In this document: in pieces, positions 5,679 through 40,211 of the stretch
How positions within the stretch are numbered: position 1 is the stretch's first letter
Layout: each line of letters opens with the position of its first letter
Assembly: GCA_016789865.1 (NCBI GenBank)
Contig: JAEUPC010000228.1
Coordinates: 1-46,690 of the forward strand
DNA from: Rubrivivax sp.
GTDB lineage: Bacteria > Pseudomonadota > Gammaproteobacteria > Burkholderiales > Burkholderiaceae_C
Direction: 5' to 3'
DNA length: 46,690 nucleotides
Notes under the pieces: generated by a model
Told to the model about the DNA's origin: nothing
Seen by the model: the letters and a program-made list of their open reading frames with translations, nothing else
Database searches by the model: none
Program-made: the position numbers and the translations under genes

Positions 5679-6029
5679 TCACGGCGATAGCGGCAGAGGT
5701 GGCCAAGGCGGCAATGGCAGCGCCAGCAGCGCCGAGGCGAGCGTCTTGCCGTGCGCGTCCAGCGCCAGCGAGCGCGTCACGCCGCCGGCCAGCGCCTCGT
5801 CCATCACGAAGTGCAAGGCGGCCAGCTGCGGCAGCGCATGGCGCACCACGGCGCCGTGCACCACGCCGCGGTAGGCTTCTCGCACGCGCTCGGCAGTGAG
5901 CCAGCGCTCGAGCAGCGGGTAGTCGGCCGGGTCGAGCGGAATCACCGCGAGCGTCGCGCGGTTGCCCTTGTCGCCGCTGCGCGCGATGGCGATGTCGCCC
6001 AGCCGCCGGGCGCTGCGCGCCGGGGTCAT
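5679..6029 (-). CDS. AtuA-like ferredoxin-fold small protein
   Basis: 116 residues. Carries the ARSGDKGN signature (16-23) of the small domain that in many AtuA proteins is fused to the C-terminus and in others, as here, is separate. It overlaps the preceding atuA gene by the four bases ATGA (6026-6029), so translation is probably coupled and the two products likely act together as a complex. Cytoplasmic. The last 15 residues are Pro/Leu-rich. The biochemical role of this domain is not settled. Confidence 0.85.
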   Translation of the reverse strand: MTPARSARRLGDIAIARSGDKGNRATLAVIPLDPADYPLLERWLTAERVREAYRGVVHGAVVRHALPQLAALHFVMDEALAGGVTRSLALDAHGKTLASALLALPLPPWPPLPLSP

Positions 6030-7417
6030 CGCACCCACTCCAGCACCTGCACCTGTGGGCGCACGGCCGCGCGGGGCACCAGGCACGACGCCACGGCCAG
6101 CACCTCGCGCACCGACTGCGTGACGCCGCCGCCGCCGGCCGGGCCGTTGAGGTACAGCGCCTCCACCTCGCGGCCGATGCGCTGGGCCTCGCTGCGCGTG
6201 GCGCAGCGCGCGGCCAGGCGCAGGCGCACTTCGTACGGCTGGCCTCCCGCTTCGTTGCCCGGCTCGCTGCCCGGCGTGCCGATCGGCGCCGACGCGGCCC
6301 CGTGCATCGCATTCACGCCGATCAGCTCGGCGCGCTGCTCCAGCGCGCCCAGGCCGGCGCCGCGCAACCGGTGGGCCAGCACGCGCAGCGCCAGTTCGCC
6401 GCGTTCGCGCGCGCCGGGCCCGGCGTAGGAGATCTGGCCTTCGCCGATGAAACCGTCGCGCACGCCGAGGCTGGCCTTCAGGTGCAGCGGCCGCTCGCTG
6501 CCCGAAGCGCCTGTCACCGCCACGCGGTCGGCGCCCACCTCGTGCAGCCGCACCTGCGAGAAGTCGGCCGTGACGTCGGGCTGCAGGTAGCGCGCCGGGT
6601 CCTCGATCTCGTACAGCAGCTGCGCGGTGCAGGTGAGGCGGTTCACGCGCCCGCCGCTGCCTTCGAGCTTGGTGATCACCGCATCGCCTTGCACACCGAC
6701 CTCCGCCAACGGAAAGCCCACCTCTTCCAGCCGCGGCACGTCGAAGCGCCCGGGCTCGGCGATGTAGCCGCCGCTGACCTGCGCGGCGCATTCGAGCAGA
6801 TGCCCCACCGCGATGCCGCGGCCGAGCAGCGGCCAGGCGTCGGCCGCCCAGCCGAAGTGGTGCATCAGCGGCGCGAGGAACAGCGCCGGGTCGGCGACGC
6901 GGCCGGTGATCACCACGTCGGCCCCCGTGCGCAGCGCCGGCAGCAGCGCCTGGGCACCCAGGTAGGCGTTGGCCGACACCAGCCGCCCGGCCAGCGCGGC
7001 GCTGCTGCGCGCGCCGCCGATGTCGTCTTGCAGCGGCACCTCGTTCTCTTGCAGCCACGGCAGCACGTCGTCGCCGGTGAGCACCGCCACGCGCAGGCGC
7101 GGCAGGCCCAGCGCGCGCGCCACCTGCAACGCCGCCTGCCCGGCCGCCTCCGGATGCGCCGCGCCCATGTTGGTGACGATGCGCGTGCCGTGCCGCAGGC
7201 AGGCCGGCAGCACGGCATGCAGACGCTCGGCCAGCAGCGGGTCGAAGCCCGCGCCGGGGTCGCTCAGCCTGGCCAGCTGCGCCAGCGCGATGGTGCGCTC
7301 GGCCAGGCACTCGAACACCAGCGCGTCGAGCTGCCCGCGCTCGGCGAGGTCGCGCGCGGGCTCGATGCGGTCGCCGGCGTAGCCGGCGCCGGCACCGATG
7401 CGGAAGGGTCGTGTCAT
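6026..7417 (-). CDS. AtuA-family (DUF1446) acyclic terpene utilisation protein
   Basis: 463 residues, the usual length for a stand-alone AtuA large domain. Recognisable family segments are the N-terminal IGAGAGYAGDRIEPA, TNMGAAHPEAA, DVVITGRVADPALFLAPL, GGYIAEPG and KLEGSGG. AtuA is required for citronellol/geraniol breakdown in Pseudomonas, but the other atu genes (geranyl-CoA carboxylase, acyl-CoA dehydrogenases) are absent here. The protein probably serves another branched or hydroxylated acid; this is inference. It heads a minus-strand run with the AtuA-like protein (ATGA overlap), a Bug protein and an alkylsulfatase. No strong ribosome site precedes the ATG at 7417. Confidence 0.88.
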   Translation of the reverse strand: MTRPFRIGAGAGYAGDRIEPARDLAERGQLDALVFECLAERTIALAQLARLSDPGAGFDPLLAERLHAVLPACLRHGTRIVTNMGAAHPEAAGQAALQVARALGLPRLRVAVLTGDDVLPWLQENEVPLQDDIGGARSSAALAGRLVSANAYLGAQALLPALRTGADVVITGRVADPALFLAPLMHHFGWAADAWPLLGRGIAVGHLLECAAQVSGGYIAEPGRFDVPRLEEVGFPLAEVGVQGDAVITKLEGSGGRVNRLTCTAQLLYEIEDPARYLQPDVTADFSQVRLHEVGADRVAVTGASGSERPLHLKASLGVRDGFIGEGQISYAGPGARERGELALRVLAHRLRGAGLGALEQRAELIGVNAMHGAASAPIGTPGSEPGNEAGGQPYEVRLRLAARCATRSEAQRIGREVEALYLNGPAGGGGVTQSVREVLAVASCLVPRAAVRPQVQVLEWVR

Positions 7418-7471
7418 GGGCGGGATGCGGCCCGCAGCCTAACCGACGCGGCCGCCGAGCTCCATCGGGGC

Positions 7472-7555
7472 GGCAAACGGGCTGACAAGCGGTGCGGCAA
7501 ACGGGCCGGCAAACGGGCCGGCATGCGGGCCGGCATACGGGCCGGCACCGGGGCG
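7472..7555. repeat. 12-base tandem array, seven units
   Basis: Unit GGCAAACGGGCC. The second-last five units (7496-7555) are nearly identical and two more diverged units (7472-7495) continue the same register. It sits in the 261-base gap between divergent atuA and the monooxygenase-ligase gene. The reverse strand would read as a four-residue protein repeat, but no gene is supported there. Confidence 0.85.
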
Positions 7556-7678
7556 CAAGCAGGAGGCGAGAAGGCCGCGACAAGCCGGCGCTGCCGTAGC
7601 ATGCGGCTGCCCCGGGAGCCTGGCGTTCGGCGCGGGGCGATGACCGGCCATGCTCCTGCACACCTGACTCCGCAATAG

Positions 7679-10534
7679 ATGCGCACGGCCATCCTCGGCG
7701 GCGGCCCCGCCGGCCTCTTTCTCGCGCTGCTGCTCAAGCGCCGCCGCCCGCATGACGAGGTGCTCGTCCTCGAGCAGAACGCGCGCGGCGCCACCTTCGG
7801 CTTCGGCGTGGTGTTCTCCGAAGGCGCGCTGGACTTCCTGCGTGCCGGCGAGCCCGAGGTGTTCGCGCGGCTCGAAGCCGGCATGGAGCGCTGGCCCGAG
7901 CAGAAGATCGTGCACCGCGACGAAGCCGTGCTCATCGACGGCAACGGCTTCTCGGCCATCGGCCGCCTGGCCCTGCTCGATGCGCTCTTGCGTCTTTGCG
8001 AGCCGGCCGGCGTGCAGGTGGCCTGGGGCCGCAGCGTCACGTCGCTCACCGAGCTGGCCGGCTTCGACCTCGTCGTCGCCGCCGATGGCGTCAACTCGAT
8101 GGTGCGGCGCACGCTGGCACCGCTGCTGCAGCCGCGCACGCAGTGGCTGACCAACAAGTTCGCCTGGTACGGCACGACGCGGGCGTTCGATTGCCTGACG
8201 CTGACCTTCCGCGCCAACGAGCACGGCCACTTCGTCGCGCACCACTACCGCTACGCACCCGACATGAGCACCTTCATCGTCGAATGCGACGCGGCCACCT
8301 GGCACCGCGCCGGCCTGGCGCAGATGAGCGACGACGACAGCCGCCGCTACTGCGAGCGCGTGTTCGCGCCCGACCTGGATGGGCACGCGCTGGTCTCCAA
8401 CCGCTCGATCTGGCGCAACTTTCCGCTGCTGTGGACGCCGCAGTGGACGCTGGCACCGGGCGTGGCAGGCGCAGGCCTGGGCGGTGTGGCGCTCATCGGC
8501 GACGCGGTGCGCACGGGCCACTTCTCCATCGGCTCGGGTACGCGGCTGGCGATGGAAGACTCGATCGCGCTGGCCGCGGCGCTGGCCGCGCACGGCGACG
8601 ATGTCGCCGCGGCGCTGGCGGCCTTCGAGCGCGAGCGCAAGCCGGTGGCCGGGAAGATCGTGCGCGCGGCCAACGCCAGCAGCTTCTGGTACGAGCGGCT
8701 GGCCGACAAGATGCGGCTTGCGCCATGGCAGCTGGCCCATGACTACATGACGCGAAGCGGCCGCATGAGCGACGAGCGCCTGCGCGCGCTGGCGCCGCGC
8801 TTCATGGCGCGCGTGGACGGCGCGCGCGCCGCGGCGCCGCGGCCGGACCTCGCCGCGCACCCCGAGCGCCAGGCCGACCCCTGCGGGCCGCACACCCCCG
8901 GGGCGCAGGAGATCGCCTTCGCGCTGCCCGAGCAATACAACGCGAGCCGGCTGCTCTATGACAACCTGGCCGCCGGCCGGGCCGACAAGACCGCGCTGGT
9001 CTGCGAAGGCCGCCACGTCAGCTACCGGGAGCTGGCCGCGTTGGCCAGCCGCGCGGGCCACGCGCTGGCGGCGGCCGGCCTGGCGCGCGGCAGCCGCGTG
9101 CTGCTGCTGATGCACGACACGCCGCAGTACGTGGCCGCGATCTTCGGCGCCATGCGCGCGGGCTTCGTGCCGGTGCTCGTCAGCACGCAATCGCCGGCCG
9201 AGCTGGTGGCCTACTGCCTGGCCGACAGCGGCGCCGAGGCGGCCATCGTGCACGGCGCGCTGGCGCCGCTGCTGGCGCATGCCGACGTGCGCGCGACGCG
9301 GCTGAGGGAGCTCGTCATCGCCGGCGACGATGCGCTGCCCGAGGAGTGGCTGGCCGGCGAGAAGGCGCTGGAGGCGCTGGCAGCGCCGCAGGTCGTGCAT
9401 GTCTCGCGCTGGGACGAGGCGGTGGCCGCCGCGCCCGCGCAGCTGGACGAGGCGCCCACGCACCGCGACGAGATGGCGTTCTGGATGTACAGCTCGGGCA
9501 GCACCGGCCGCCCCAAGGGCGTGGTGCACCTGCACCACGACGCGCCCTACACCCACGCCGCCTACGGCCAGCGCGTGCTGGGTCTGCGCGAGAGCGACAT
9601 CGTCTTCTCGCCGCCGAAGATCTTCTTCGCCTACGGCTTCGGCAACGCGCTCACGTTCCCGTTCGCGGTGGGTGCCACCACGGTGCTGCACCCGGGGCGG
9701 CCCGACCCCGAAGCGGTGTTCACGCTGATCGAGCGCCACCGGCCCACGGTGCTGTTCGGCCTGCCCACGCTGTACAACGCGCTGCTCGTGCACCCGGGCG
9801 GCGAGCGGCGCGATCTGGCGAGCCTGCGGCTGTGCGTCTCGGCCGCCGAGACGCTGTCGCAGGAGATGTTCAACGAGTGGCAGCGGCGCTATCGCCTGCC
9901 CATCGTCGAGGGCCTGGGGTCCACCGAAGTGCTGCACATCTACCTCAGCAACCGCGCCGACCGCCACAAGCCCGGCGCCAGCGGCGCGCGCGTGCCCGGT
10001 TACGAGGTCCGGCTGTGCGACCCCGAGGGTGTGGAGGTGCCGCGCGGCGAGCCCGGCATCCTGTGGGTGCGCGGCGACTCCAACGCCCCCTTCTACTGGC
10101 GCCGCCCCGACAAGACCGCCCAGACGATGCGCGCCGGCGGCTGGGTCTGCACCGGCGACCGCTTCCGCGAAGACGCCGAGGGCTTCTACGGCTTCGAGGG
10201 CCGCGCCGACGACCTGGTGAAGGTCAGCGGCCAATGGGTGCACCCGCTGGAGGTGGAACGCGCGCTCGCCGAGCACCCGGCCGTGCGCGAATGCGCCGTG
10301 CTGGCGGTGGAAGACGCCAACCGCCTGATGACGCTGCAGGCCTGGGTGGCCCTGCGCCCGGGCCACGCCGCCGGCGCGCAGACGACGCGGGCCTTGCAGC
10401 AGTTCGTCAAGCGCGCGCTCGTGCCGTTCAAGTATCCGCGGCTCGTGCACTACCGGGACGAACTGCCGAAGACCGGCACCGGCAAGATCGACCGGCAACG
10501 GCTGCGGGCCGGCGCGGGGCCCGGGGCGGGCTGA
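7679..10534 (+). CDS. Fused flavin monooxygenase / benzoate-CoA-ligase-like protein
   Basis: One uninterrupted 951-residue frame with two enzymes. Residues 1-385 are an FAD monooxygenase of the salicylyl-CoA 5-hydroxylase / 2-aminobenzoyl-CoA monooxygenase group: GGGPAG (7-12), FGFGVVFS (40-47), DG motif ADGVNS (135-140), GDAVRTGHFSIGSGTRLAMED (from 274). After a linker (386-420), residues 421-951 are an AMP-forming ligase closest by eye to benzoate-CoA ligases: DNLAAGRADKTA, P-loop YSSGSTGRPKG (604-614), acceptor Lys936 in GTGKIDR. Probable activity: activate an aromatic acid to its CoA thioester and hydroxylate it in one polypeptide. The known relative with this monooxygenase domain is fused to an Old-Yellow-type reductase instead. 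The substrate is inferred. No good ribosome site before the ATG. Confidence 0.88.
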   Translation: MRTAILGGGPAGLFLALLLKRRRPHDEVLVLEQNARGATFGFGVVFSEGALDFLRAGEPEVFARLEAGMERWPEQKIVHRDEAVLIDGNGFSAIGRLALLDALLRLCEPAGVQVAWGRSVTSLTELAGFDLVVAADGVNSMVRRTLAPLLQPRTQWLTNKFAWYGTTRAFDCLTLTFRANEHGHFVAHHYRYAPDMSTFIVECDAATWHRAGLAQMSDDDSRRYCERVFAPDLDGHALVSNRSIWRNFPLLWTPQWTLAPGVAGAGLGGVALIGDAVRTGHFSIGSGTRLAMEDSIALAAALAAHGDDVAAALAAFERERKPVAGKIVRAANASSFWYERLADKMRLAPWQLAHDYMTRSGRMSDERLRALAPRFMARVDGARAAAPRPDLAAHPERQADPCGPHTPGAQEIAFALPEQYNASRLLYDNLAAGRADKTALVCEGRHVSYRELAALASRAGHALAAAGLARGSRVLLLMHDTPQYVAAIFGAMRAGFVPVLVSTQSPAELVAYCLADSGAEAAIVHGALAPLLAHADVRATRLRELVIAGDDALPEEWLAGEKALEALAAPQVVHVSRWDEAVAAAPAQLDEAPTHRDEMAFWMYSSGSTGRPKGVVHLHHDAPYTHAAYGQRVLGLRESDIVFSPPKIFFAYGFGNALTFPFAVGATTVLHPGRPDPEAVFTLIERHRPTVLFGLPTLYNALLVHPGGERRDLASLRLCVSAAETLSQEMFNEWQRRYRLPIVEGLGSTEVLHIYLSNRADRHKPGASGARVPGYEVRLCDPEGVEVPRGEPGILWVRGDSNAPFYWRRPDKTAQTMRAGGWVCTGDRFREDAEGFYGFEGRADDLVKVSGQWVHPLEVERALAEHPAVRECAVLAVEDANRLMTLQAWVALRPGHAAGAQTTRALQQFVKRALVPFKYPRLVHYRDELPKTGTGKIDRQRLRAGAGPGAG

Positions 10535-10604
10535 GAACCTCGGCAGCCACACCCGCTTCGCGAAGGCGCTGAGGAAGGACAAGCGGCGCCAGGCGCCGGC
10601 CGCT

Positions 10605-11417
10605 TCAGCCGAACATGTCCGGCTGCGTCTTCGCCAGCCGCTCGTAGATCGGCTGGAAGTGCAGCCAGCCGATGTACTCGCTGCCCACGTGCTCGCGGCT
10701 GTAGCGCGCCTTGTCGGGCGGCACGAGCTTGGGCGCGATGCCGGTGGCTTCCAGCATCAGCTGCTGCTGGCAGCAGCGCTCCAGCGCGATGAACCAGAAC
10801 GCCGCCGCCTCGATGCTGTGGCGGCTGGCGGTGATGAGGCCGTGGTTCTGGTGGATGGCCGCCTTCACGCCCTTGAAGGCGGCGGCGAAGTGGTGGCCGG
10901 CGTCTTCTTCCACCGCGACCTTGCCGCCCTCGTCGGTGACGACGACGTGGTCCTCGAAGAAGGCGCAGGCGTCCTGCGTCACCGGCGGCAGCGGCCGGCC
11001 GAGCGCCGCGTAGGCCACGCCGTACACCGTGTGCGCGTGGCACATCGCGACGATGTCGGGGTGCGCTTCGTGCACCGCGGCGTGCAGCACGAAGCCGGCG
11101 CGGTTGATCGCGTATTCGCCCTGCACGACGCGGCCCTTGTGATCGGCGAGGATGAGGTTGCTGATCTTCACGTCGGCGAAGTGCACCGCCATCGGGTTGG
11201 TCCAGTAGAGCTCGGGGCGCTCGGGGTCGCGGATCGTCAGATGCCCGGCAAAACCGTAATCCAGCCCGTGCACCGCGAACGCGCGGCACGCCGCCACCAG
11301 GCGCCGCTGGCGGTGCGTGCGCTCTTCGGCGTGGGTGGCGAAGGTGGGCTTGTCCGGAAACTTCAGGCCGGGCTGCAGCGGCTGGTAGATCGATTCGCGT
11401 TGTGTCACTTCGAGCAT
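10605..11417 (-). CDS. Class II aldolase/adducin-family protein
   Basis: 270 residues. Zinc-ligand pattern HAH (127-129, in MCHAHTVYG) and His192 in HQNHGLIT are intact, plus HEAHPD (116-121). Such enzymes catalyse retro-aldol or decarboxylation-type cleavage of hydroxy-carbonyl compounds. Long members with this N-terminus are often annotated as aldolase-like proteins of unknown substrate. AGGAG lies about eight bases before the ATG at 11417. It follows the epoxide hydrolase gene by 63 bases on the same strand and ends convergently 70 bases from the fusion gene. A shared pathway with these neighbours is plausible. Confidence 0.88.
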   Translation of the reverse strand: MLEVTQRESIYQPLQPGLKFPDKPTFATHAEERTHRQRRLVAACRAFAVHGLDYGFAGHLTIRDPERPELYWTNPMAVHFADVKISNLILADHKGRVVQGEYAINRAGFVLHAAVHEAHPDIVAMCHAHTVYGVAYAALGRPLPPVTQDACAFFEDHVVVTDEGGKVAVEEDAGHHFAAAFKGVKAAIHQNHGLITASRHSIEAAAFWFIALERCCQQQLMLEATGIAPKLVPPDKARYSREHVGSEYIGWLHFQPIYERLAKTQPDMFG

Positions 11418-26176: not shown

Positions 26177-26980
26177 ATGAGCCTGCCGGCCGAGGCGCTG
26201 CTGGCCGCGCTGATCGTCGGCCTGTACCTGAAGGACTCGCTGCTGCTGCTGGCGCCCGACGAGGCCGTGCTCGTGCGCGGCCTGGGGGGGCGTTGGCACG
26301 CCGGCTTCGGCGCCCGCGGCTACAAGCTGGCCGGCCGCGAGCCCTATCTGGCCAACCCCCTGACGCCGCATGCACCGGTGTACCGGCTGCGGTGGTGCAT
26401 GACCAGCGAAGCCCCAGACCCCGGCGTCGCGCGTGATGGCGCCGCGGGTGGTGGCGCCGCGGGTGGTGGCGCCGCGGTCGACGGTGCCGAGGGTGCGGCA
26501 CTGCGGCTGGCGCCGGCGTCGCTGGCGCGGCTGGCACCCTTCGCATGGGCATGCTGGTTGCTGCTGTTCGCGGTCATCCCCGGGGCGGTGCTGGCGCAGT
26601 GGGGCGTGACGTTCGTGTTGTGGGCACTGGTCGCGCTCTACGCCGGCATCGCCGTGGCGCTGGCCTTGCTGTGGTCGCTGCGCGAGCCGTTGGGCCTGAG
26701 CGCGCGGGCCTGCGCGCTGCTGGCGTTCGAATGCCTGGTGTGCCCGCCGTACGCGGCCAACATCGTGCGGCGCGCGGCGGCCGCGCGGACGGTGTCTGAC
26801 GATTTCGTTGCCTTGGCCGGGCAACTGCTGCCGCCGGCCGCGCAAGCGCAGATGCGCCGCGAGTGCCTGGCGCGCATCGATGAGCAGCTCGAGGCACTCG
26901 ACGACGGCGGTGCCACTGCTGAACAGCTGCGGCGCGCCCGTGTGCGCTTTGCTCCCGGGAGCGCCGACGATCTGGATTGA
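26177..26980 (+). CDS. Unknown membrane protein with Gly/Ala-rich linker
   Basis: 267 residues. One N-terminal hydrophobic segment (about 5-26), a short soluble region with conserved-looking APDEAVLVRG and NPLTPHAPVYRLRW, a Gly/Ala linker (88-103) encoded by a 15-base tandem repeat, two hydrophobic helices (about 121-140 and 145-165), and a C-terminal region that resembles a coiled helix pair (ECLVCPPYAANIVRR then EQLEALDDGG). I do not recognise a family. It follows DUF2167 by 104 bases and precedes the M81 gene by 74, same strand. Confidence 0.7.
   Translation: MSLPAEALLAALIVGLYLKDSLLLLAPDEAVLVRGLGGRWHAGFGARGYKLAGREPYLANPLTPHAPVYRLRWCMTSEAPDPGVARDGAAGGGAAGGGAAVDGAEGAALRLAPASLARLAPFAWACWLLLFAVIPGAVLAQWGVTFVLWALVALYAGIAVALALLWSLREPLGLSARACALLAFECLVCPPYAANIVRRAAAARTVSDDFVALAGQLLPPAAQAQMRRECLARIDEQLEALDDGGATAEQLRRARVRFAPGSADDLD
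26438..26482 (+). repeat. 15-base in-frame tandem repeat
   Basis: GGCGCCGCGGGTGGT twice, then a third copy with three changes at its end. It encodes a Gly/Ala linker in the membrane protein and keeps the frame. Confidence 0.8.
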
Positions 26981-27054
26981 ATGGCTCACGCAACCCGACT
27001 GGCGGGCCGGCTGCAACCGGGAGCCGGCGCGCCTGCCCCCACAATCCCGGCCCC

Positions 27055-28566
27055 ATGACGCGCATCCTCATCGCCGGCTTCCAGCACGAGACCAACACCT
27101 TCGCCCCGAGCCTGGCCGACTGGGCCGCGTTCACGCGCGGCGATTCGTTCCCTGCCTTCGTGCGCGGCGCCGCCATGCCGCAGCAGCTGGGCGGCATCAA
27201 CATCCCGGTGGCCGGCTTCATCGACAGCGCCAAGCGCCGCGGATGGACACTCGTGCCCTCGGCCTGGGCCGGCGCCATCCCGTCGAGCTACGTCACCGAG
27301 GACGCCTTCGAGCGCATCGCCGGCGCCATCTGCGAAGACGTGCGCGAGGCCAAGGACCACGGCGGGCTCGACGCCATCTACCTCGACCTGCACGGCGCCG
27401 CGGTGGCCGAGCACGCGCTCGACAGCGAAGGTGAACTGCTCGCGCGGCTGCGCGCCATCGTGGGCCCCGGCCTGCCCATCGTCGCCAGCCTCGACCTGCA
27501 CGCCAACGTCACCGCGCGCATGCTGGAGCTGGCCGATGCGCTGGTCTCGTACCGCACCTACCCGCATGTGGACATGGCCGACACCGGCGCGCTGGCCGCC
27601 GAGCTGCTGGCGCGGCGCTTCAAGGCCGGGCGCAAGGAACCGATGCACGCGCGGCGCTTTCCGTACCTCATCGCGCTGAATGCGCAGAGCACATTCCTCG
27701 AGCCCGGGCGCTCGATCTACGAGGAGCTGAAGGCGCTGGACCGCGAGTTCGGCTGCGTGCTCAGCTTCTGCCCCGGCTTCCCGGCCGCCGACTTCGACGA
27801 GTGCGCGCCGGTGCTTTGGGGGCACGGCGAGCGCGCCGAGGCCGCGGTGGAACGCCTCTTCGCGCGCGCCGGCCAGCCGGCGCAGTGGCGCATCGAGGTG
27901 CTGCCGGCGCGCGACGCGGTGGCGCAGGCGATGAACCTCGCGGGCAGCACCGCTGCCGCCGGCAAGCCCGTGGTGCTGGCCGACACGCAGGACAACCCCG
28001 GCGCCGGCGGCGACAGCAACACCACCGGCATGTTGCACGCGCTGCTGGCGCAAGGCGCGGGCCGGCGCTTCCCCGGGCAGGTGGCGCTCGGCCTGATGTT
28101 CGACCCGGCCGCCGCGCGCGCCGCGCACGAGGCGGGGCTGGGCAGCGAGATCGACATCGCACTGGGCAAGGCCGTGCCCACCTTCACCGGCCAGCCCAGC
28201 GATGCGCCAGTGCGCGGCCGCTGCAAGGTGCTGGCGCTGGCCGACGGCAAGTGCACGCTGAAAGGGCCGATGATGACCGGCCTCACCGTGGGCCTGGGCC
28301 CCAGCGCCTGCCTCGAGATCGACGGCGTGCGCATCGCCGTGACCAGCGGCAAGAAGCAGCTGCTCGACCGCGAGCTGCTGCGCATGGTGGGCATCCACAC
28401 CGAGCAGATGCGCATCGTGGTGGTGAAGAGCTCGGTGCACTTCCGCGCCGACTTCCAGCCCAACGCCAGCCACGTGCTGGTGGGCAAGGCCGCTGGGCCG
28501 ATGGCCGCCGACCCGGGTGACCTGCCCTGGCAGCGCCTGAACCCGGCGACCCGCACACGGCCCTGA
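27055..28566 (+). CDS. M81-family metallopeptidase (MlrC-like), first copy
   Basis: 503 residues, normal for MlrC/M81. N-terminal HETNTF (11-16) gives the Glu ligand, LDLHGA (110-115) follows, and the zinc site D-x-H at Asp147/His149 (SLDLHAN) is followed 22 residues later by His171 (TYPHVD), as in microcystinase. The C-terminal MlrC domain (about 310-495) includes ADTQDNPGAGGDSNTTG. The founding MlrC opens linearised microcystin; most relatives in Burkholderiales have unknown peptide or amide substrates. A second, diverged M81 gene lies 4 kb away. Cytoplasmic, no signal peptide. Confidence 0.9.
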   Translation: MTRILIAGFQHETNTFAPSLADWAAFTRGDSFPAFVRGAAMPQQLGGINIPVAGFIDSAKRRGWTLVPSAWAGAIPSSYVTEDAFERIAGAICEDVREAKDHGGLDAIYLDLHGAAVAEHALDSEGELLARLRAIVGPGLPIVASLDLHANVTARMLELADALVSYRTYPHVDMADTGALAAELLARRFKAGRKEPMHARRFPYLIALNAQSTFLEPGRSIYEELKALDREFGCVLSFCPGFPAADFDECAPVLWGHGERAEAAVERLFARAGQPAQWRIEVLPARDAVAQAMNLAGSTAAAGKPVVLADTQDNPGAGGDSNTTGMLHALLAQGAGRRFPGQVALGLMFDPAAARAAHEAGLGSEIDIALGKAVPTFTGQPSDAPVRGRCKVLALADGKCTLKGPMMTGLTVGLGPSACLEIDGVRIAVTSGKKQLLDRELLRMVGIHTEQMRIVVVKSSVHFRADFQPNASHVLVGKAAGPMAADPGDLPWQRLNPATRTRP

Positions 28567-32231: not shown

Positions 32232-32501
32232 ATGCTTGCGCTGCGCCCGAACTGCGAGTGCTGCGATGCCGACCTGCCGCCCGAATCGCCGGCTGCACGC
32301 ATCTGCTCTTTCGAGTGCACTTTCTGCGAACGTTGCGTGCAAGAGCGGCTGAGCGGCATCTGCCCCAACTGCGGCGGCGAGTTCGTGCGCCGGCCACGGC
32401 GGCCGGCGGCCAAGCTGGCCAAGCGGCCGGCTTCCACCAAGCGTGTGTTCAAGCCGCGCGGCTGCCATGCGGCCGCCACTCACAACGGGTCGAGCGGATA
32501 G
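32232..32501 (+). CDS. DUF1272 zinc-ribbon protein
   Basis: 89 residues. Cysteine pairs typical of DUF1272: CECC (8-11), CSFECTFCERC (25-35) and CPNCGGEF (44-51), so one or two structural zinc sites. The C-terminus (52-89) is a basic low-complexity tail. It starts 27 bases after the previous gene. Its last 22 bases overlap the end of the convergent second M81 gene (stop at 32480). Confidence 0.88.
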   Translation: MLALRPNCECCDADLPPESPAARICSFECTFCERCVQERLSGICPNCGGEFVRRPRRPAAKLAKRPASTKRVFKPRGCHAAATHNGSSG

Positions 32502-33970
32502 ATCGGCCTTCTCACCTTCTCGAATGCCAGCAGCTCGTAGTCCGACGTGCACACCCCCGTGCCCGCGCATTCCACCACCGCGTGCGCCAGGCTGCGCAGC
32601 CCGGCGCGCCAGTGCACGCGGCTCTTCAGCATGAGAAAGCGCAACGTGTGCGGCGCGATGCCCAGCGCCGTGAACGCCGCCAGATCGTGCGGCTCGACGT
32701 GGTCGCTGATCACCGCCACCTGGATGCCCGCCACCTCGAACACCGCCGACAGGCCCATGTCGTTGTGCTCGCCGCGCGCCATCGGACCGAAGTTGCGATA
32801 ACGCCCGTCGGACAGCCGCCGCACGCGGCCGGTGACGGTGCGCGGCCGGCCCTTCAGCCCGATCGACGGCATGTCCAGCTTGCCGCCCAGCGGCAGCGTG
32901 AGCTCGGCGCCGATGCCGGCCGCGGCCATCGCGCGCACCGCCTCGGGGTCGTAGACGGCGAAGGCGGCAGCGTCGGTGAGGCCGGCGTCGAGCATGGCGC
33001 CCAGCACCGTCATCGTGTCCATCGTGCCGCCGCTGGCGCAGTTGTCGCTGTGGTCGAGCAGCACGACCGGCCCGCTGCCTGCGGGCTTGTCGGCCGCCAG
33101 CCGCTGCGCACGCGCCATCGATTCGGCCAGCGGTTCGAGGCGATAGACGAACTGCTTGCGCTCGTGCCACGCCATCTCCAGCAGCTCGTCGCACCAGCGG
33201 CGCGCCAGCGCCGGGTCGTTGTCGGTGACGACCACCGCCGACAGGCCGGCGAATTCGATGTCGGCGTTCGGGAAGCCGACGAACACGCTGGCCGCCAGCG
33301 CCCCTTCGGCCTCCATCTGCTTGCAGCGGGCCTGCAGCGTGCGGTTGGGTTCGTCGTCGCTGCCCTGGCGCATCACGTGCGGCAGCATCGGCTGGCGGCC
33401 CCAGGCCATCGTCGGCTTGGCTTTGCCCGCCAGCTGGGCCAGCACGGCGCGGCCGGCGCGCAGGCCCGTGCCATGCATGTCCACATGCGGATAGGTCTGG
33501 TAGCCGGCGATGGCCGTGGCGTGCCGGCCCATCGCGTCGTACAGGTTGGTGTGCATGTCCAGCGCCACGCCGATGGGAATGCCGGGCGCGATGGCGCGGA
33601 TGCGCCGCAGCAACTCGCCCTCGCCGTCTTCGTAACTCTCGGTGACCATGGCGCCGTGCAGGTCGAGCAGCACGGCATCGCAGCCCTGGGCCACCGCGGC
33701 ACAGATGCGCGAGGCGATGTGCTCGAAGGCGGCGTTGTGCACCGGCCCGCTCGGCCAGGCCGAGGCGGCAATGGGCAGCACCACCTCGGCGCCAGCCTCT
33801 TCGGCCAGCTCCAGGAAGGCCGCCAGCGCCGAGCCGGTGCCGCGCCAGGCCGCGGCGGCCGCGGCGCCTTCGGGCGGCAGCCGGCCCCCGGTGCCGAAAC
33901 GGCTGATCGGCGTCGGCACCGGCGAGTATGTGTTCGTCTCGTGCTTCATCTGTGCGACCACCAGTTTCAT
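32480..33970 (-). CDS. M81-family metallopeptidase (MlrC-like), second copy
   Basis: 496 residues. HETNTY (10-15), LDLHGA (102-107), zinc pair Asp138/His140 (ALDMHTN) and, 22 residues on, His162 (YPHVD) reproduce the spacing of the first copy. The MlrC C-terminal domain has DHSDNCASGGTMDTM. The two M81 proteins are clearly diverged, so they are not a recent duplication. AAGGAA lies seven bases before the ATG at 33970. It is divergent from the first of three amidase genes, which supports a shared amide- or peptide-degrading theme. Substrate unknown. Confidence 0.9.
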   Translation of the reverse strand: MKLVVAQMKHETNTYSPVPTPISRFGTGGRLPPEGAAAAAAWRGTGSALAAFLELAEEAGAEVVLPIAASAWPSGPVHNAAFEHIASRICAAVAQGCDAVLLDLHGAMVTESYEDGEGELLRRIRAIAPGIPIGVALDMHTNLYDAMGRHATAIAGYQTYPHVDMHGTGLRAGRAVLAQLAGKAKPTMAWGRQPMLPHVMRQGSDDEPNRTLQARCKQMEAEGALAASVFVGFPNADIEFAGLSAVVVTDNDPALARRWCDELLEMAWHERKQFVYRLEPLAESMARAQRLAADKPAGSGPVVLLDHSDNCASGGTMDTMTVLGAMLDAGLTDAAAFAVYDPEAVRAMAAAGIGAELTLPLGGKLDMPSIGLKGRPRTVTGRVRRLSDGRYRNFGPMARGEHNDMGLSAVFEVAGIQVAVISDHVEPHDLAAFTALGIAPHTLRFLMLKSRVHWRAGLRSLAHAVVECAGTGVCTSDYELLAFEKVRRPIYPLDPL

Positions 33971-34405
33971 CTTTGGGGTTCCTTGGGCGGGGGGTGATGT
34001 GCCAAAAGCTCGGGCTCGCCGCGTGCTGCGCGGCGCCCGGCCAGCCAAACCCATCATTGCAGTGCGCCACGCGGGCCCGGCTCAGGGCAATCCCCGGCGC
34101 AGCGCGCTGTTCCCAGCGGTCAAGATTGCCCCCATGTCGGCGTCATGAACTCCACGACGTTTCCTGCTTCCCTCGACACCGGCCCTGCTCAACCCGCCGC
34201 CCCGACCTTCAGCGCGCTGCGCCGGGTGTCGGGCCGCTTTCAAGCTGCGGCGCCCGCCGCCGATCCGGCCGGAGCCAGGCTTCCGATCACAAGCGCCCCG
34301 TTCGACCCTGCTCCGGCTCCGGCTCCCACCCCTGCCGACCCACCTTCGGTTCCACCCCGCCCGCGCTTCCAGCCCAGCCGCCCCGGCCCCCTCTATCAAC
34401 CCGAA
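33971..34405. other. Gap upstream of first amidase, with open but non-coding-looking frame
   Basis: 435 bases between divergent genes. The amidase frame stays open back to an ATG at 34145, but that stretch has an unusually low third-position GC (many CCT, GCT, TTT, CAA codons) and a Pro/Ala-rich translation with no family match. I treat it as promoter/leader DNA rather than protein. Confidence 0.4.
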
Positions 34406-35836
34406 ATGCGCGACCGAGCCACCGACCTGGCCGACTACACCGCCACCGACCTCGTGGTGCTGTACCACTCGCGCGGCGTCTCGCCGGTGGAAGCCACCAA
34501 GGCGGTGCTGGCGCGCATCGACAAGCTGAACCCGCGGCTGAACGCCTACTGCCTGGTCGATGCCGAGCACGCCCTGGAAAGCGCCCGTGCCAGCGAAGAG
34601 CGCTGGATGCGCGGCGCGCCGCTGTCGGTGCTGGACGGCGTGCCGTGCTCGATCAAGGACCTCATCCTCACCGCCGGCTGGCCCACGCTGCGCGGCAGCC
34701 ACACGGTGGACCCGAGCCAGCCCTGGGACGTGGACGCCCCGGTCACGGCGCGCCTGCGCGAAGGCGGCGCGGTGCTGCTGGGCAAGACCGCCACCCCCGA
34801 GTTCGGCTGCAAGGGCGAAACTAACTCGCCCAAGACCGGCATCACGCGCAACCCCTGGAACGCCAAGAAGAGCCCCGGCGGCAGCTCCGGCGGCAGCGCC
34901 GCCGCGGTGGCCGCGGGCATGGGGCCGCTGTCCATCGGCACCGACGGCGCCGGCAGCGTGCGCATCCCGGCGTCGTTCTGCGGCAACTTCGGCCTGAAGC
35001 CCAGTTTCGGCCGCGTGCCGGCATACCCGCTGTCGCCGTTCGGCAGCGTGGCGCACCTCGGCCCGCACACCATGAGCGTGCGCGACGCGGCGCTCGTGAT
35101 GAGCCTCATCACCCGGCCCGACGCGCGCGACTGGACCAGCCTGCCGCCCGAAACCCCGCACGGCGGCGCGCGCGACTACAGCGCCGGCCTGGAAAGCGGC
35201 GTCGCCGGCCTGCGCGTGGCCTTCTCGCCCACGCTCGGCTACGCCAAGAACGTGCACCCCGAGGTGGCCGCCGCCGTGGCCGCCGCGGCACAGCGCATGG
35301 CCGAGCTCGGCGCCATCGTCGAGCAGGTCGACCCCGGCTTCGAAGACCCGCTGGAGATCAGCACCGGCCTGTGGTTCGCGGGCGCGTGGACGTTGTGGAA
35401 CACCCTCAGCCGCGAACAGCAGGCGCGCACCGACCCCGACTTCGCCGCCGAGGCGGCGCTGGGCTCCAAGCTGAGCGCGCTGGAAGTGCAAAGGCTGAAC
35501 CTGCGCCGCGGCGCACTCGGCTCGCACATGCGGCAGTTCATGACCGGCTGGGACCTGCTGGTCACGCCCAGCGTCGCCGTGCCCGCCTTCGACGCCAAGC
35601 CCGCCGGGCACCAGGCGATGGAGCCCGGCGCGATGCTCGGCTGGACGCCGTTCAGCTACCCGTTCAACCTCACCCAGCAACCCGCCTGCACGGTGCCCTG
35701 CGGGCTGACCAGTGAGGGCCTGCCGATCGGCGTGCAATTCGTCGGGCCGATGTTCGGCGATGCACTGGTGCTGCGCGCGGCGCGGGCGTTCGAGAGCGTG
35801 ATGCCGATACAGAGGCCGGATCTGGCGCGGTTGTGA
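34406..35836 (+). CDS. Amidase-signature enzyme 1
   Basis: 476 residues from the ATG at 34406; an ATG at 34145 would add 87 Pro/Ala-rich residues of atypical codon use. The Ser-cisSer-Lys triad is complete: Lys84 (CSIKDL), the GGSSGG serine at about 160 and nucleophile Ser184 (GAGSVRIPAS), with the usual 100-residue spacing. GLKPSFGRVPAYP and the C-terminal NLTQQPACTVPCG, GLPIGVQFVGP are classic. Hydrolyses a carboxamide to acid and ammonia or amine; substrate not predictable. The next small gene follows by four bases and amidase 2 ten bases after that: probable operon. Confidence 0.92.
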   Translation: MRDRATDLADYTATDLVVLYHSRGVSPVEATKAVLARIDKLNPRLNAYCLVDAEHALESARASEERWMRGAPLSVLDGVPCSIKDLILTAGWPTLRGSHTVDPSQPWDVDAPVTARLREGGAVLLGKTATPEFGCKGETNSPKTGITRNPWNAKKSPGGSSGGSAAAVAAGMGPLSIGTDGAGSVRIPASFCGNFGLKPSFGRVPAYPLSPFGSVAHLGPHTMSVRDAALVMSLITRPDARDWTSLPPETPHGGARDYSAGLESGVAGLRVAFSPTLGYAKNVHPEVAAAVAAAAQRMAELGAIVEQVDPGFEDPLEISTGLWFAGAWTLWNTLSREQQARTDPDFAAEAALGSKLSALEVQRLNLRRGALGSHMRQFMTGWDLLVTPSVAVPAFDAKPAGHQAMEPGAMLGWTPFSYPFNLTQQPACTVPCGLTSEGLPIGVQFVGPMFGDALVLRAARAFESVMPIQRPDLARL

Positions 35837-35840
35837 GCCG

Positions 35841-36221
35841 TTGATCGAATTCCTGATCGAGGTCGTTGGTGAATTCGTCCTCCAGTTCCTGCTGGAGGTG
35901 CTTGCCGAGTTCGGCTACCGGTCGGTCACGGAGCCGTTTCGTTCAACGCCGCACCCGGTGCTGGCCGGGATCGGCTACGCAATGTTCGGCGCCGCGGTGG
36001 GCGGGCTGAGCCTGCTGGCGTTCCCGCACCACCTCACGCCTTCGGGCATGGCGCGGGTGCTCAACCTCGTGCTCACGCCGCTTGCGTGCGGCGCCTGCAT
36101 GGCCGTGCTCGGGGCCTGGCGCCGCAAGCATGGGCAGGCGCTTGTGAGGCTCGATCGTTTCTCGTACGGCTTTCTCTTCGCCTTCGCGATTGCCATCACG
36201 CGCTATCACTTTGCCGACTGA
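35841..36221 (+). CDS. Small unknown membrane protein between two amidases
   Basis: 126 residues from a TTG at 35841, four bases after the amidase 1 stop; there is no ATG that gives a better N-terminus. An amphipathic N-terminal helix (1-24, FLIEVVGEFVLQFLLEVLAEF), then hydrophobic segments at about 43-62, 70-92 and 106-122. Similar short proteins are widespread as unknowns in Proteobacteria. Coding is supported by frame composition and tight spacing on both sides. Confidence 0.65.
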   Translation: MIEFLIEVVGEFVLQFLLEVLAEFGYRSVTEPFRSTPHPVLAGIGYAMFGAAVGGLSLLAFPHHLTPSGMARVLNLVLTPLACGACMAVLGAWRRKHGQALVRLDRFSYGFLFAFAIAITRYHFAD

Positions 36222-36231
36222 CGCTGGAACC

Positions 36232-37752
36232 ATGTCCGACACCGCCCTCGCACCCGCCTTCCTCCCCGCCCACGAACTGGCCCGCCGCCTGCGCCGCCGC
36301 GAGCTTTCGGCGCTGGAGTTGCTCGATCACTACCTGGCGCGCATCGAGCGCCTGAACCCGAGGTTCAACGCCGTGGTCGTGCTCGACGCCGAGCGCGCCC
36401 GCGCGCGGGCGCGCGAGGCCGATGCGGCGCTGGCGCGCGGCCAGAGCTGGGGCCCGCTGCACGGCCTGCCGATGACGGTGAAGGAGTCGTTCAACGTCGC
36501 CGGCCTGCCCACCACCTACGGCTACCCGGCGTTCGCCGAGCGCCGGCTCGACGGCGACGCCGTCACCGTGCAGCGGCTGAAGGCCGCCGGCGCGGTGGTC
36601 TTCGGCAAGACCAACGTGCCGGTGTCGCTGGCCGACTGGCAGACCTTCAACCCGGTGTACGGCACGACGAACAACCCGTGGGACGTGTCGCGCACGCCGG
36701 GCGGCAGCTCGGGCGGGTCGGCGGCGGCGCTGGCCGCCGGGCTCACCGGGCTGGAGCTGGGCAGCGACATCGGCGCGTCCATCCGCGACCCGGCCCACTA
36801 CTGCGGCGTGTGGGGCCTCAAGCCGACGTGGGGGGTGGTGCCGCAGGCCGGGCACGAGCTGACGCCGGTGCCTTGCGCCGACAACTACGACATCACCGCA
36901 GTGGGGCCGATGGCGCGCAGCGCCTTCGACCTCGCGCTGGCGATGGAGGTGCTGAACCAGCCGCTGACGATGTTCACGCCGGTGGGCCGCGTGCCGCTGG
37001 CCTGGGCCACGCGCGGCACGCCGCCGCGGCGCTGCCGCGTGGCCATCCTGGCCGACGATGCCCAGGCGCGGGTCGACGCGCCGCTGCGCGCGGCGCTGGC
37101 CCGGCTGGCCGACTTCCTGCGGCGCGAGGGCTGCACTGTCGACGAGCAGGCGCGCCCGGTGGACAGCGCCGAGGCGCATGCCGTGTATCTGCACCTGCTG
37201 CGCGCAGCCACCGGGGCGCGCTTCACCGATGCCGACTACGCGGCCGCCCAGGCACGCGCGCCGCGCTACGCCGCCACCGACATGAGCTACCCCGCGCGCA
37301 TGGACCGCGGCAGCGCCACCGGCCACCGCGACTGGGTGCAGTTCGACCAGCGGCGCGACAAGCTGCGGCAGCAGTGGGCGGCGTTCTTCGAGCGTTTCGA
37401 CCTGCTCATCTGCCCCACCGCCACCACGCCGGCGTTCGTGCAGAACCAGCGCGGCGAGCGCTGGGAACGGCTGATCCCGGTGCGCTGCGCCGACGGCAGC
37501 GTGCTGCAGCAGCCGACCACCGATGCGCTGTTCTGGGCCGGCTATCCGGGCGTCGTCGGGCTGCCGGCGTGCTCGGTGCCGCTGGAGCTGTGCGACGAGC
37601 CGGCCGGCAGCGGCAGCGGCGCCACGGTGCGTCTGCCCGTGGGCGCGCAGATCATCGGCCCGGCCTTCGGCGACCTGGACGTGCTGGCCTTCGCGCAGTG
37701 GCTGGAGCGCGAGTACCACGCGTTCACGCCCCCGGCGCCGGCAGTGGATTGA
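36232..37752 (+). CDS. Amidase-signature enzyme 2
   Basis: 506 residues. Triad: Lys84 (MTVKESFNVAG), GGSSGG serine near 159 and nucleophile Ser183 (GASIRDPAHYCG). GLKPTWGVVPQAG and the C-terminal LPVGAQIIGPAFGD support the family. It is only loosely similar to the amidases on either side, so the three look like old paralogues, not a fresh tandem copy. Cytoplasmic. The ATG at 36232 begins ten bases after the preceding membrane-protein gene. A 9-base tandem array follows the gene. Confidence 0.92.
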   Translation: MSDTALAPAFLPAHELARRLRRRELSALELLDHYLARIERLNPRFNAVVVLDAERARARAREADAALARGQSWGPLHGLPMTVKESFNVAGLPTTYGYPAFAERRLDGDAVTVQRLKAAGAVVFGKTNVPVSLADWQTFNPVYGTTNNPWDVSRTPGGSSGGSAAALAAGLTGLELGSDIGASIRDPAHYCGVWGLKPTWGVVPQAGHELTPVPCADNYDITAVGPMARSAFDLALAMEVLNQPLTMFTPVGRVPLAWATRGTPPRRCRVAILADDAQARVDAPLRAALARLADFLRREGCTVDEQARPVDSAEAHAVYLHLLRAATGARFTDADYAAAQARAPRYAATDMSYPARMDRGSATGHRDWVQFDQRRDKLRQQWAAFFERFDLLICPTATTPAFVQNQRGERWERLIPVRCADGSVLQQPTTDALFWAGYPGVVGLPACSVPLELCDEPAGSGSGATVRLPVGAQIIGPAFGDLDVLAFAQWLEREYHAFTPPAPAVD

Positions 37753-37769
37753 GCGGCGCGGCCATACTC

Positions 37770-37814
37770 CGCGCCCACCGCGCCCACCGCGCCCACCGCG
37801 CCCACCGCGCCTAC
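37770..37814. repeat. 9-base tandem array, five units
   Basis: CGCGCCCAC four times perfectly and once with one change, in the 131-base gap after amidase 2. Confidence 0.9.
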
Positions 37815-37883
37815 CCTCCGCGCCTTGCGCGCACCGCCCCCGCCGGGCGCGTCAACCACTGCCGCCCCCGCGGCCCACGCACC

Positions 37884-38339
37884 ATGTTCGGCCCCATTTC
37901 CATCCCCTTTGGTTGCAAGCTGCTGTTCAACACCGTCAAGCTCAAGCCGGGCGCGACGATCGACGACGTCGAACTGGCGCTGGCCGAGATGTGCAACGTG
38001 GTCAAGGAGACCTACGGCGGAGAGCGCGGCGGGTTCGTCGCCGGGCAGGTGTTCCGCTTCGCCGGCTTCGTGTCGGCCGAGGGCTCGCTGGGCGCCGGCG
38101 CCGCGAACGCCCCCGCGGCCGCGGCCGCGGCCGGCACTGGCGCGGCCGGCACGGGCGCCGACCACGACCTCGTGATCGCCACCTATTGGCGCTCGTTCGA
38201 CCAGCACGAGCGCTCGCACGCCGACCACGTGTTCAAGGACAAGTTTGCGGCGCTGGCCGCGCACTGCACGGAAACGCGCGAGCTGGGCTACGAGCTGCTC
38301 TGGCAAGGCGCCTACGAGGGCGAAGCCCACGCCGGGTGA
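37884..38339 (+). CDS. Unknown 151-residue protein with Ala/Gly insert
   Basis: Starts MFGPISIPFGCKLLF and contains KLKPGATIDDVELALAEM and a C-terminal LVIATYWRSFDQHERSHAD helix/strand pattern. The layout suggests a small alpha+beta barrel (antibiotic-biosynthesis-monooxygenase-like), but I am not certain. Residues 69-92 are an Ala/Gly run encoded by GC-rich repeats that interrupts the domain. Coding is supported by consistent codon use and length. It lies between amidases 2 and 3, same strand. Confidence 0.6.
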   Translation: MFGPISIPFGCKLLFNTVKLKPGATIDDVELALAEMCNVVKETYGGERGGFVAGQVFRFAGFVSAEGSLGAGAANAPAAAAAAGTGAAGTGADHDLVIATYWRSFDQHERSHADHVFKDKFAALAAHCTETRELGYELLWQGAYEGEAHAG

Positions 38340-38540
38340 CCGAGGCCGGGGCGGGGCCCTGGCGCGGCGAGCGGCGAGCGGCGGACGGCGGGCGTCGAGT
38401 GGCGGCCCGCGGTGCACCGCCCGCGCCAATCTGCGCATGGCCCGCGTCGTGGGCCCACCTGCCCACGGCGTTTGCGCTGCCGCTCCAGGCCTGCGCAATG
38501 CGGGGTGAATTCCTCGGGCGCGCCGCGGTAACGTAGCGGC

Positions 38541-40211
38541 ATGCACTCCGCCAGCAGCCGCTCCGGCCCGACCACCGTCAGCCACGCCACCACCGAGGCG
38601 GGCCATGCGACCACCACGCGCCCCGCGGCGCTGGCGTTCGCCCACACCCGGCCGGGTGCCAACACGCGCCCGCAGGGGCTCGGCCCCGGCGCCGAGGGGC
38701 GCGAGCGGGCTGCATCGGTCCCGCCACGCATCGACGACATCACGGCGCTGGACGCCATCACGCTGTCGCGCGCCATCCACGCCCGCCAAGTCTCGTGTCG
38801 CGAGGTGATGCAGGCCTACCTCGCGCGCATCCACCGCCTCAACCCGCAGGCCAACGCCATCGTCAACCTCGTGCCCGACGACGTGGCACTGGCCCAGGCC
38901 GAGCGCTGCGACGCCGAGCTCGGCGGCCCGGGCGGGCGCCACCGCGGGCGCTGGGGCAGCCGCGGCTGGATGCACGGCTTTCCGCAGGCCATCAAGGACA
39001 CGGCGCAAGCCAAGGGCCTGCCTACCACCTACGGCAGCCCGCTGCTGGCCGCCGACGTGGCCACCACCGACAGCCTGTACGTGCAGCGCATGAAGGCCAG
39101 CGGCGCCATCGTCATCGGCAAGACCAACATGCCCGAGCTGGGCCTGGGCTCGCACACCTACAACAACCTGTTCGGCCGCACGCCCAACGCCTACGACGCC
39201 ACGGTCAGCGCCGGCGGCAGCAGCGGCGGCGCCGCGGTGGCGCTGGCGCACCGGCTGCTGCCGGTGGCCGACGGCTCCGACTTCATGGGCTCGCTGCGCA
39301 ACCCCGCGGGCTGGAACAACGTATTCGGTTTCCGCCCGAGCCAGGGCCGCGTGCCGGCGTTCCCCAAGCCCGAGCTCTTCGTCAGCCAGCTGGGCACCGA
39401 CGGGCCGATGGGCCGTACCGTGCGCGACCTCGCGGCGCTGTTGTCCACGCAGGCCGGGCACGACCCGCGCGTGCCGCTGTCGCTGGCCACCGACCCGGTG
39501 AGCTACGTGCCCGCCGACGGCGAGTCCACGGTGAAGGGCCTGCGCATCGGCTGGCTGGCCGATCTCAACCGCTACCTGCCGATGCAGACCGGCGTGCTGG
39601 CCCGCTGCGAGGCCGCGCTGGAACGCATGGAAGCCGCCGGCGCGAAAGTGGAGCCGCTGGGCCGCGAGGTGCTGGGCGAATCGCCCGAGGCGCTGTGGCA
39701 GGCCTGGCTGGTGTGGCGCCGCGCGCTGGTGGCGCCGAACGTCGCCGCGCTGCTGCCCTTGGCACCTGATGTGCACGAAGCCCGCGCGCGCATCAAGCCC
39801 GAGGCGCTGTGGGAATACGACCAGGCGCAGGACCTCGACTTCAACACCTTCATGCGCGCCGCTCAGGTGAGGAGCCGCTTCCACACCCGCCTGGCCGGCG
39901 TCTTCGAGCGCTTCGACCTGCTGGCGCTGCCGGTGGCGCAGGTGTGGCCGTTCGACCTGCAGGCCAGCTGGCCGCGCGAGATCATCGGCATCGAGATGGA
40001 CACCTACCACCGCTGGATGGAGGTGACGATCTACGCCACCTTCGCCGGGCTGCCGGCGGTCTGCGTGCCGGCCGGCTTCCACGCCAATGGCCGCTGGCCG
40101 ATGGGGCTGCAGCTGATCGGGCCGCCGCTGGGCGACGCGGCGGTACTGCGCGCCGCAGCCGGCTATGAAGACCTGGTCAGCGACTGGCTGGCCGTGCGGC
40201 CGCCCGGTTGA
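38541..40211 (+). CDS. Amidase-signature enzyme 3
   Basis: 556 residues, longer than usual because of a Thr/Ala/Gly/Pro-rich N-terminus (1-60) that may be an over-extended start; no nearer ATG exists before the conserved part, which begins about residue 64 (DDITALDAITLSRAI). Triad: Lys152 (QAIKDTAQAKG), GGSSGG serine near 228 and nucleophile Ser251 (FMGSLRNPA), spaced 99 residues. FGFRPSQGRVPAFP and GLPAVCVPAGF are family marks. Related by motif to aryl-amidases and to the other two enzymes here. Substrate unknown. Confidence 0.9.
   Translation: MHSASSRSGPTTVSHATTEAGHATTTRPAALAFAHTRPGANTRPQGLGPGAEGRERAASVPPRIDDITALDAITLSRAIHARQVSCREVMQAYLARIHRLNPQANAIVNLVPDDVALAQAERCDAELGGPGGRHRGRWGSRGWMHGFPQAIKDTAQAKGLPTTYGSPLLAADVATTDSLYVQRMKASGAIVIGKTNMPELGLGSHTYNNLFGRTPNAYDATVSAGGSSGGAAVALAHRLLPVADGSDFMGSLRNPAGWNNVFGFRPSQGRVPAFPKPELFVSQLGTDGPMGRTVRDLAALLSTQAGHDPRVPLSLATDPVSYVPADGESTVKGLRIGWLADLNRYLPMQTGVLARCEAALERMEAAGAKVEPLGREVLGESPEALWQAWLVWRRALVAPNVAALLPLAPDVHEARARIKPEALWEYDQAQDLDFNTFMRAAQVRSRFHTRLAGVFERFDLLALPVAQVWPFDLQASWPREIIGIEMDTYHRWMEVTIYATFAGLPAVCVPAGFHANGRWPMGLQLIGPPLGDAAVLRAAAGYEDLVSDWLAVRPPG

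Follow-up and report, generated by a model that had tools for sequence, protein, structure and literature searches.

The window (the whole 46,690 bp stretch that was analysed, contig JAEUPC010000228.1 of a Rubrivivax sp. assembly) carries on its plus strand a stop-free translation of 951 residues, in which a FAD-dependent monooxygenase precedes a benzoate-CoA-type ligase. The parts of this fusion are listed below by window position or residue number; the linker boundaries were chosen from the Pfam and NCBIfam matches and the alignment.

7679..10534, plus strand: monooxygenase-ligase fusion ORF, 951 aa, with Pfam and NCBIfam family matches
7679..8824, plus strand: FAD-dependent monooxygenase half, residues 1-382, with NF006101 and VioD-family matches
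7697..7714, plus strand: GGGPAG dinucleotide-binding motif, residues 7-12
residues 135-137, plus strand: ADG motif
8498..8506, plus strand: GDA (the 'GD' FAD motif), residues 274-276
8825..8914, plus strand: linker, residues 383-412, of low model confidence
8915..10531, plus strand: benzoate-CoA-ligase-type half, residues 413-951, with matches to TIGR02262, 4rlf and 4eat
9488..9520, plus strand: AMP P-loop YSSGSTGRPKG, residues 604-614
residues 841-848, plus strand: GRADDLVK motif
10484..10486, plus strand: Lys936 of the PKTGTGK motif, the lysine expected to be catalytic, aligning with PKTATGK of 4eat

Both flanking genes, an AtuA-family gene (6026..7417) and a class II aldolase gene (10605..11417), lie on the minus strand, so the fusion probably has a transcript to itself. 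The spacer 5′ of the fusion gene (7460-7560) contains short imperfect repeats, gcggcaaacgggccgg-like units, recognized by eye. Besides the two flanking genes, the window neighbours scanned include a TctC-type receptor, an epoxide-hydrolase-type gene, a second AMP-binding enzyme and amidases. Two M81/MlrC-type metallopeptidase-family genes and three amidase genes fall in one stretch (26977-28566, 32480-34057 and 34145-40211).

Pfam places FAD_binding_3 at residues 130-330, AMP-binding at 431-807 and AMP-binding_C at 858-936. The ligase half matches the benzoate-CoA ligase family TIGR02262 over residues 419-944 at 528 bits, above the cut-off of 375, with P-loop and C-terminal lysine present; we take Lys936 to be catalytic in this half. 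Searches of the same half against the benzoate-CoA ligases 4rlf and 4eat gave E values of about 1e-115. Residues 1-382 align to positions 1-383 of the 768-position model NF006101, the bifunctional kind with an Old-Yellow-type half. Membership of that kind was rejected: the score is 361 bits against a cut-off of 1078, the Old-Yellow half is missing, and the fusion lies outside that clade in the N-half tree. VioD (8gqr) is the best solved relative of the N half by sequence (E 4.1e-59), and membership of the VioD family (NF053547) was likewise rejected (234 bits against a cut-off of 620). G274 and D275 are invariant across the 14-row alignment A1.

Long frames are common at the 72% GC of the window, the opposite strand included (it has a 1047-codon open frame at 7439..10582), so frame length alone is no proof of a gene. 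Third-position GC in the fusion gene is 0.88-0.98 in every 60-codon block, junction blocks too. Translation, Pfam and NCBIfam families and third-position GC together rule out a chance open frame, and on homology and codon usage the 951-residue frame is a genuine gene. The only in-frame ATG, GTG or TTG codons within 361-430 are 363, 376 and 379; codons 380-430 have none, and a separate ligase start is therefore unavailable in the linker past codon 379. The original prediction, an unbroken 951-codon frame joining two enzymes with all core motifs in both halves, is borne out by translation, family matches and codon usage: the FAD motifs, the P-loop and the C-terminal lysine were all located, the last at the very residue that had been named. 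The stop or frameshift that had been feared at codons 385-420 is not there, and independent assemblies are in frame at the junction. An assembly slip is ruled out by 11 of 11 distinct clade genomes being in frame at that point.

An AlphaFold2 model from a 40-row alignment had a mean pLDDT of 84 and a pTM of 0.62, with the N half well predicted. Block means fall in the linker (70 at residues 381-390, 54 at 391-400, 67 at 401-410), and weak stretches in the ligase half include residues 601-620 and 651-660. Given these weak stretches and the pTM, the placement of the halves relative to each other is unreliable. Foldseek paired the C half with 4rlf at 40% identity and the N half with VioD 8gqr at 34-35%. 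Channelling of a CoA ester between the halves is no more than a possibility.

Eleven distinct genomes make up the window clade. The N-half tree places nine of them (the window, L013-L017 and L021-L023), and L162 (64% identity) and L163 (67%) were assigned by identity alone. L013, L014, L021 and L023 duplicate the records G1358, G1041, G017 and G1292. The fusion is full length in L013, L014, L015, L016, L022, L023 and L162. Three others are broken, by a frameshift in the ligase (L017), a run of N (L021) or a frame change near residue 128-131 (L163), with the junction frame kept. The L015 genome is labelled Acidiferrobacteraceae; the remaining named genomes of the clade are betaproteobacteria.

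A contig scan found 231 relatives; the 79 distinct loci most similar to the fused query, mostly Bradyrhizobium, were kept. Nine of these best 79 are single-frame over the junction (L013-L017 and L020-L023), 67 are split neighbours and three have the ligase only, one of them (L028) truncated by the contig end. Stop and start overlap by four bases in 58 of the 67 split loci (56 ATGA and two GTGA), a count that is not independent, most split loci being close kin. Fetched plasmid loci include fused (L010, L011, L097, L107) and split forms (L009, L012, L093, which is irregular, L095, L103, L108). In genome surveys that scored two candidates per genome and counted the window, the fusion was found at E 1e-150 in two of 299 genomes of the window's family and one of 369 of its class; in its order, six of 399 genomes had a match of full or near-full length, and in its phylum two of 398 had the fusion. 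The second in the phylum, G894 (54% identity, 1014-codon frame), is outside the tree sampling. The fusion is thus rare and scattered, is found also in alphaproteobacteria, and is not unique to the window's genome. Three fused relatives are annotated after the ligase half alone, names that hide the hydroxylase half in databases.

Trees were built for each half. The N-half tree used 46 rows out of 96, with near-copies mainly dropped; the C-half tree used 49 rows, with outgroups added and L017 and L021 omitted. The N-half tree puts the window in a starred clade (99/97) of nine fused rows. A second clade of 28 rows (98/93), mostly alphaproteobacterial, contains CehH, and the Old-Yellow-fused enzymes fall outside the 40-row group (99/97) that unites the window clade with CehH. 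In the C-half tree fused and split ligases and CehG form a 39-row clade (100/99), and six further ligases of the benzoate-CoA type, among them the genome's own L002, lie apart from it. Both halves thus group with CehH/CehG-named proteins and are separated from the monooxygenases fused to an Old-Yellow half and from the remaining ligases of the benzoate-CoA type. The window clade is a neighbour of the CehH/CehG clade and not within it, and the fork joining the two has lower support (84/92 for the N half, 89/75 for the C half).

By parsimony the 'fused' label takes four changes on the N-half tree, where none of 200 bootstrap trees manages with one, and five on the C-half tree, three of them forced by starred branches; these changes pool gains and losses, so that the number of gains is inferred. 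Fusions occur in three places: the window clade, a Rhizobium/Sinorhizobium/Nitratireductor/Pseudosulfitobacter group, and L020. More than one fusion event is the more parsimonious history. In the Rhizobium-containing group split CehH rows nest among fused rows, so reversion to split genes may also have happened. L020 keeps an in-frame ATGA resembling a former ligase start, which fits fusion by a small shift and could alternatively be a sequencing slip in that genome. The monooxygenase of L099 has as its neighbour a distantly related ligase on a very long branch, and the C-half tree drew a long-branch warning. The simplest origin would be an overlapping, co-translated gene pair that lost the intervening stop, more than once, and the family would then be an example of gene fusion out of an overlapping stop/start pair.

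Gentisate genes accompany many of the relatives. A gentisate dioxygenase homologue lies near 53 of the 79 best loci and near four of the five alphaproteobacterial fusions (L011, L097, L107 and L020, with L010 the exception); against a family cut-off of 442 bits, the Bradyrhizobium locus L043 scores 608 and L009 falls below at 266. The RefSeq plasmid record L095 names cehI (gentisyl-CoA thioesterase), cehH (salicylyl-CoA hydroxylase) and cehG (salicylyl-CoA ligase), and has IclR, fumarylacetoacetate-hydrolase-family, maiA, cupin and maleylpyruvate-isomerase genes. Counterparts of these neighbours, and a transporter, surround the fusion of L097. On a Variovorax plasmid (L099, 1084-10690) the monooxygenase is clustered with gtdA, beta-oxidation-type genes, a thioesterase and an AMP-binding enzyme; such a set could trim the side chain of a 2-hydroxyphenylpropanoid to give salicylyl-CoA.

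Queried by tblastn with gentisate-pathway references, the 46.7 kb window gave no gentisate dioxygenase, thioesterase, hydrolase, isomerase or IclR homologue. Within the fetched flanks of eight window-clade relatives, none had a gentisate dioxygenase, thioesterase, fumarylpyruvate-hydrolase or isomerase homologue, and one of the eight had an IclR homologue nearby; the flanks of L162 and L163 have none of these five. A neighbourhood common to the whole window clade was sought and not found, the few shared neighbours occurring only among L013, L014, L017 and L022. This lack of conserved neighbours is a rough result, as gene picking by codon-position GC is imprecise and five of ten neighbour picks had no Pfam match.

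Elsewhere in the window's own genome (77% complete), contig C148 has a gentisate-dioxygenase-like gene (245 bits against the cut-off of 442). It is 55% identical to a gene of L157 that adjoins a standalone monooxygenase (50% identical) and an AMP-binding ligase, with fumarylpyruvate-hydrolase (FPH) and maleylacetoacetate-isomerase (maiA) homologues 5-7 kb further on. The genome also has a fumarylacetoacetate-hydrolase homologue at 41%, and its best thioesterase homologues are weak (32-33%). The remaining pathway steps could be encoded elsewhere in the genome. In the 663-codon frame at L113 6364-8355, the genome's gentisate-dioxygenase-like domain takes up just the C-terminal 331 residues; the N-terminal half, which hit no family in either of two libraries, may be an open stretch of GC-rich sequence.

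Standalone relatives of the monooxygenase half also occur in the order, at 56-64% identity and in separate frames (L152-L156 and others). A gentisate dioxygenase homologue lies near two of L152-L156 (L155 and L156), and none of these five has a CoA ligase directly beside the monooxygenase within the fetched stretch. In L153 (2140-4043) and L156 (9107-10974) a Sir2/CobB-type NAD-dependent deacylase gene lies directly 3′ of the standalone monooxygenase, the gene ends overlapping. Sirtuins reactivate acylated aryl-CoA ligases.

Nei-Gojobori dN/dS ratios between the window and its relatives (N half, C half) were 0.17 and 0.23 for L013, 0.21 and 0.22 for L014, 0.22 and 0.28 for L022, and 0.28 and 0.26 for L015. 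These four pairs of low ratios speak for the reading given below, and the ratios for L016, 0.62 and 0.59, count against it. The L016 ratios are suspect, because the synonymous distance of L016 is smaller than that of closer relatives, perhaps through GC bias.

We consider the fusion to be, with somewhat better than even probability, a bifunctional salicylate:CoA ligase and salicylyl-CoA 5-hydroxylase, both activities and the substrate being read from sequence. The C-terminal half would convert salicylate, ATP and CoA through an acyl-AMP to salicylyl-CoA. The N-terminal half would act as a single-component flavoprotein, taking electrons directly from NAD(P)H and hydroxylating the ring para to the existing hydroxyl to yield gentisyl-CoA. 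Its FAD motifs are those of single-component flavoprotein hydroxylases, and from this family likeness no separate reductase is expected. A separate thioesterase would release gentisate, and gentisate 1,2-dioxygenase would cleave the ring of the freed gentisate. That the halves suit consecutive steps, as originally proposed, holds for an aryl-CoA-type monooxygenase and a benzoate-CoA-type ligase, and the proposed salicylate- or anthranilate-like substrate has been narrowed to salicylate as the favoured one. Salicylate to gentisyl-CoA is favoured because the closest specifically named relatives are the separate CehH and CehG. Their function rests on database names, and neither name was found among the literature matches listed. 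The tree alone leaves the substrate unsettled, since records give the Old-Yellow-fused outgroup the name salicylyl-CoA 5-hydroxylase too. Gene neighbourhoods are divided: the gentisate genes near many relatives speak for this reading, and their absence around the window's own clade, the sub-cut-off score of the C148 gene and the weakness of the thioesterase homologues speak against it.

Sequence cannot tell salicylate from 3- or 4-hydroxybenzoate as the substrate. The same architecture could reach gentisyl-CoA from another acid, either 4-hydroxybenzoate with carboxyl-CoA migration or 3-hydroxybenzoate hydroxylated at position 6. PhgA/PhgB of Brevibacillus reportedly activate 4-hydroxybenzoate and hydroxylate its CoA ester with such a migration to gentisyl-CoA. 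The gentisate context in relatives indicates the product rather than the substrate, and the ligase half does score 371 bits on the 3-hydroxybenzoate-CoA ligase (HbdA) model NF053567; that score is far under the cut-off of 1000, however, and the nearest specifically named relatives are salicylate enzymes, so we regard another hydroxybenzoate as unlikely. Conversion of 2-aminobenzoate through 2-aminobenzoyl-CoA to a 5-hydroxylated product seems less probable again. In structure the C half is related to the anthranilate-CoA ligase AuaEII (4wv3), but the fusion's relatives accompany gentisate genes and the fusion has no Old-Yellow-type half, the half that marks the kind to which the 2-aminobenzoyl-CoA monooxygenase/reductases of Azoarcus belong. 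The Old-Yellow-fused enzymes also branch outside, although in the records they are labelled salicylyl-CoA 5-hydroxylase.

Recent decay or an assembly artefact, with only one half working, would account for the three broken relatives and for L020 as a lone fused row amid split Bradyrhizobium rows. We think it very improbable, given the junction in frame in every distinct window-clade genome, intact core motifs, and dN/dS of at most 0.28 in both halves for four of the five comparisons with the window. For the salicylate enzyme we tentatively offer, at rather less than even chances, a wider proposal: a recurrent single-chain salicylate-to-gentisyl-CoA synthase whose tether would pass on the CoA ester, with about three origins from the overlapping pair and, in the window clade, release of the gene from the gentisate cluster to stand by itself. 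Such a protein would be a candidate compact catalyst for removal of salicylate, a plant hormone and pollutant intermediate, and a natural case for asking whether a tether aids aryl-CoA transfer from ligase to hydroxylase.

The original prediction knew of no described enzyme in which such a monooxygenase has a ligase partner. The pairing is in fact known as adjacent genes; a report of the fusion was not found among the literature matches listed (titles and abstract starts, few subscription journals covered). What is new is the fusion on one chain only, the monooxygenase/ligase partnership being already known as a functional unit. The relatives of the monooxygenase had been described as alone or fused to an Old-Yellow-type reductase; separate CehH is indeed the closest specifically named one, and the Old-Yellow-fused kind lies outside the clade.

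SdgB/SdgC of Streptomyces, separate proteins, are said to convert salicylate to gentisate through salicylyl-CoA and gentisyl-CoA, the same chemistry as we propose for the fusion. The bifunctional salicylyl-CoA 5-hydroxylase/oxidoreductase (NF006101) has a homologous monooxygenase half whose partner is Old-Yellow-type, not a ligase. The benzoate-CoA ligases 4rlf and 4eat and AuaEII (4wv3) share the ligase-half fold at 36-40% identity and are standalone. The fusion and the CehG-named ligase have FGLPTLY and SAAE in place of the YGAPTGY and SAGE of 4eat, at positions that presumably flank the ligase substrate pocket. The step from salicylyl-CoA to gentisyl-CoA is stated for sdgC of Massilia in PMC13215587, and aryl-CoA ligases are the subject of PMC8388817. 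CehH and CehG belong to the same two families in the same gene order as the fusion halves, and the CehH/CehG-type loci L095 and L108 are 45-49% identical to its N half and 50-52% to its C half. They differ in being two genes, set at L095 in a complete gentisate cluster that includes the thioesterase and the IclR regulator, whereas the window has one chain, without the cluster.
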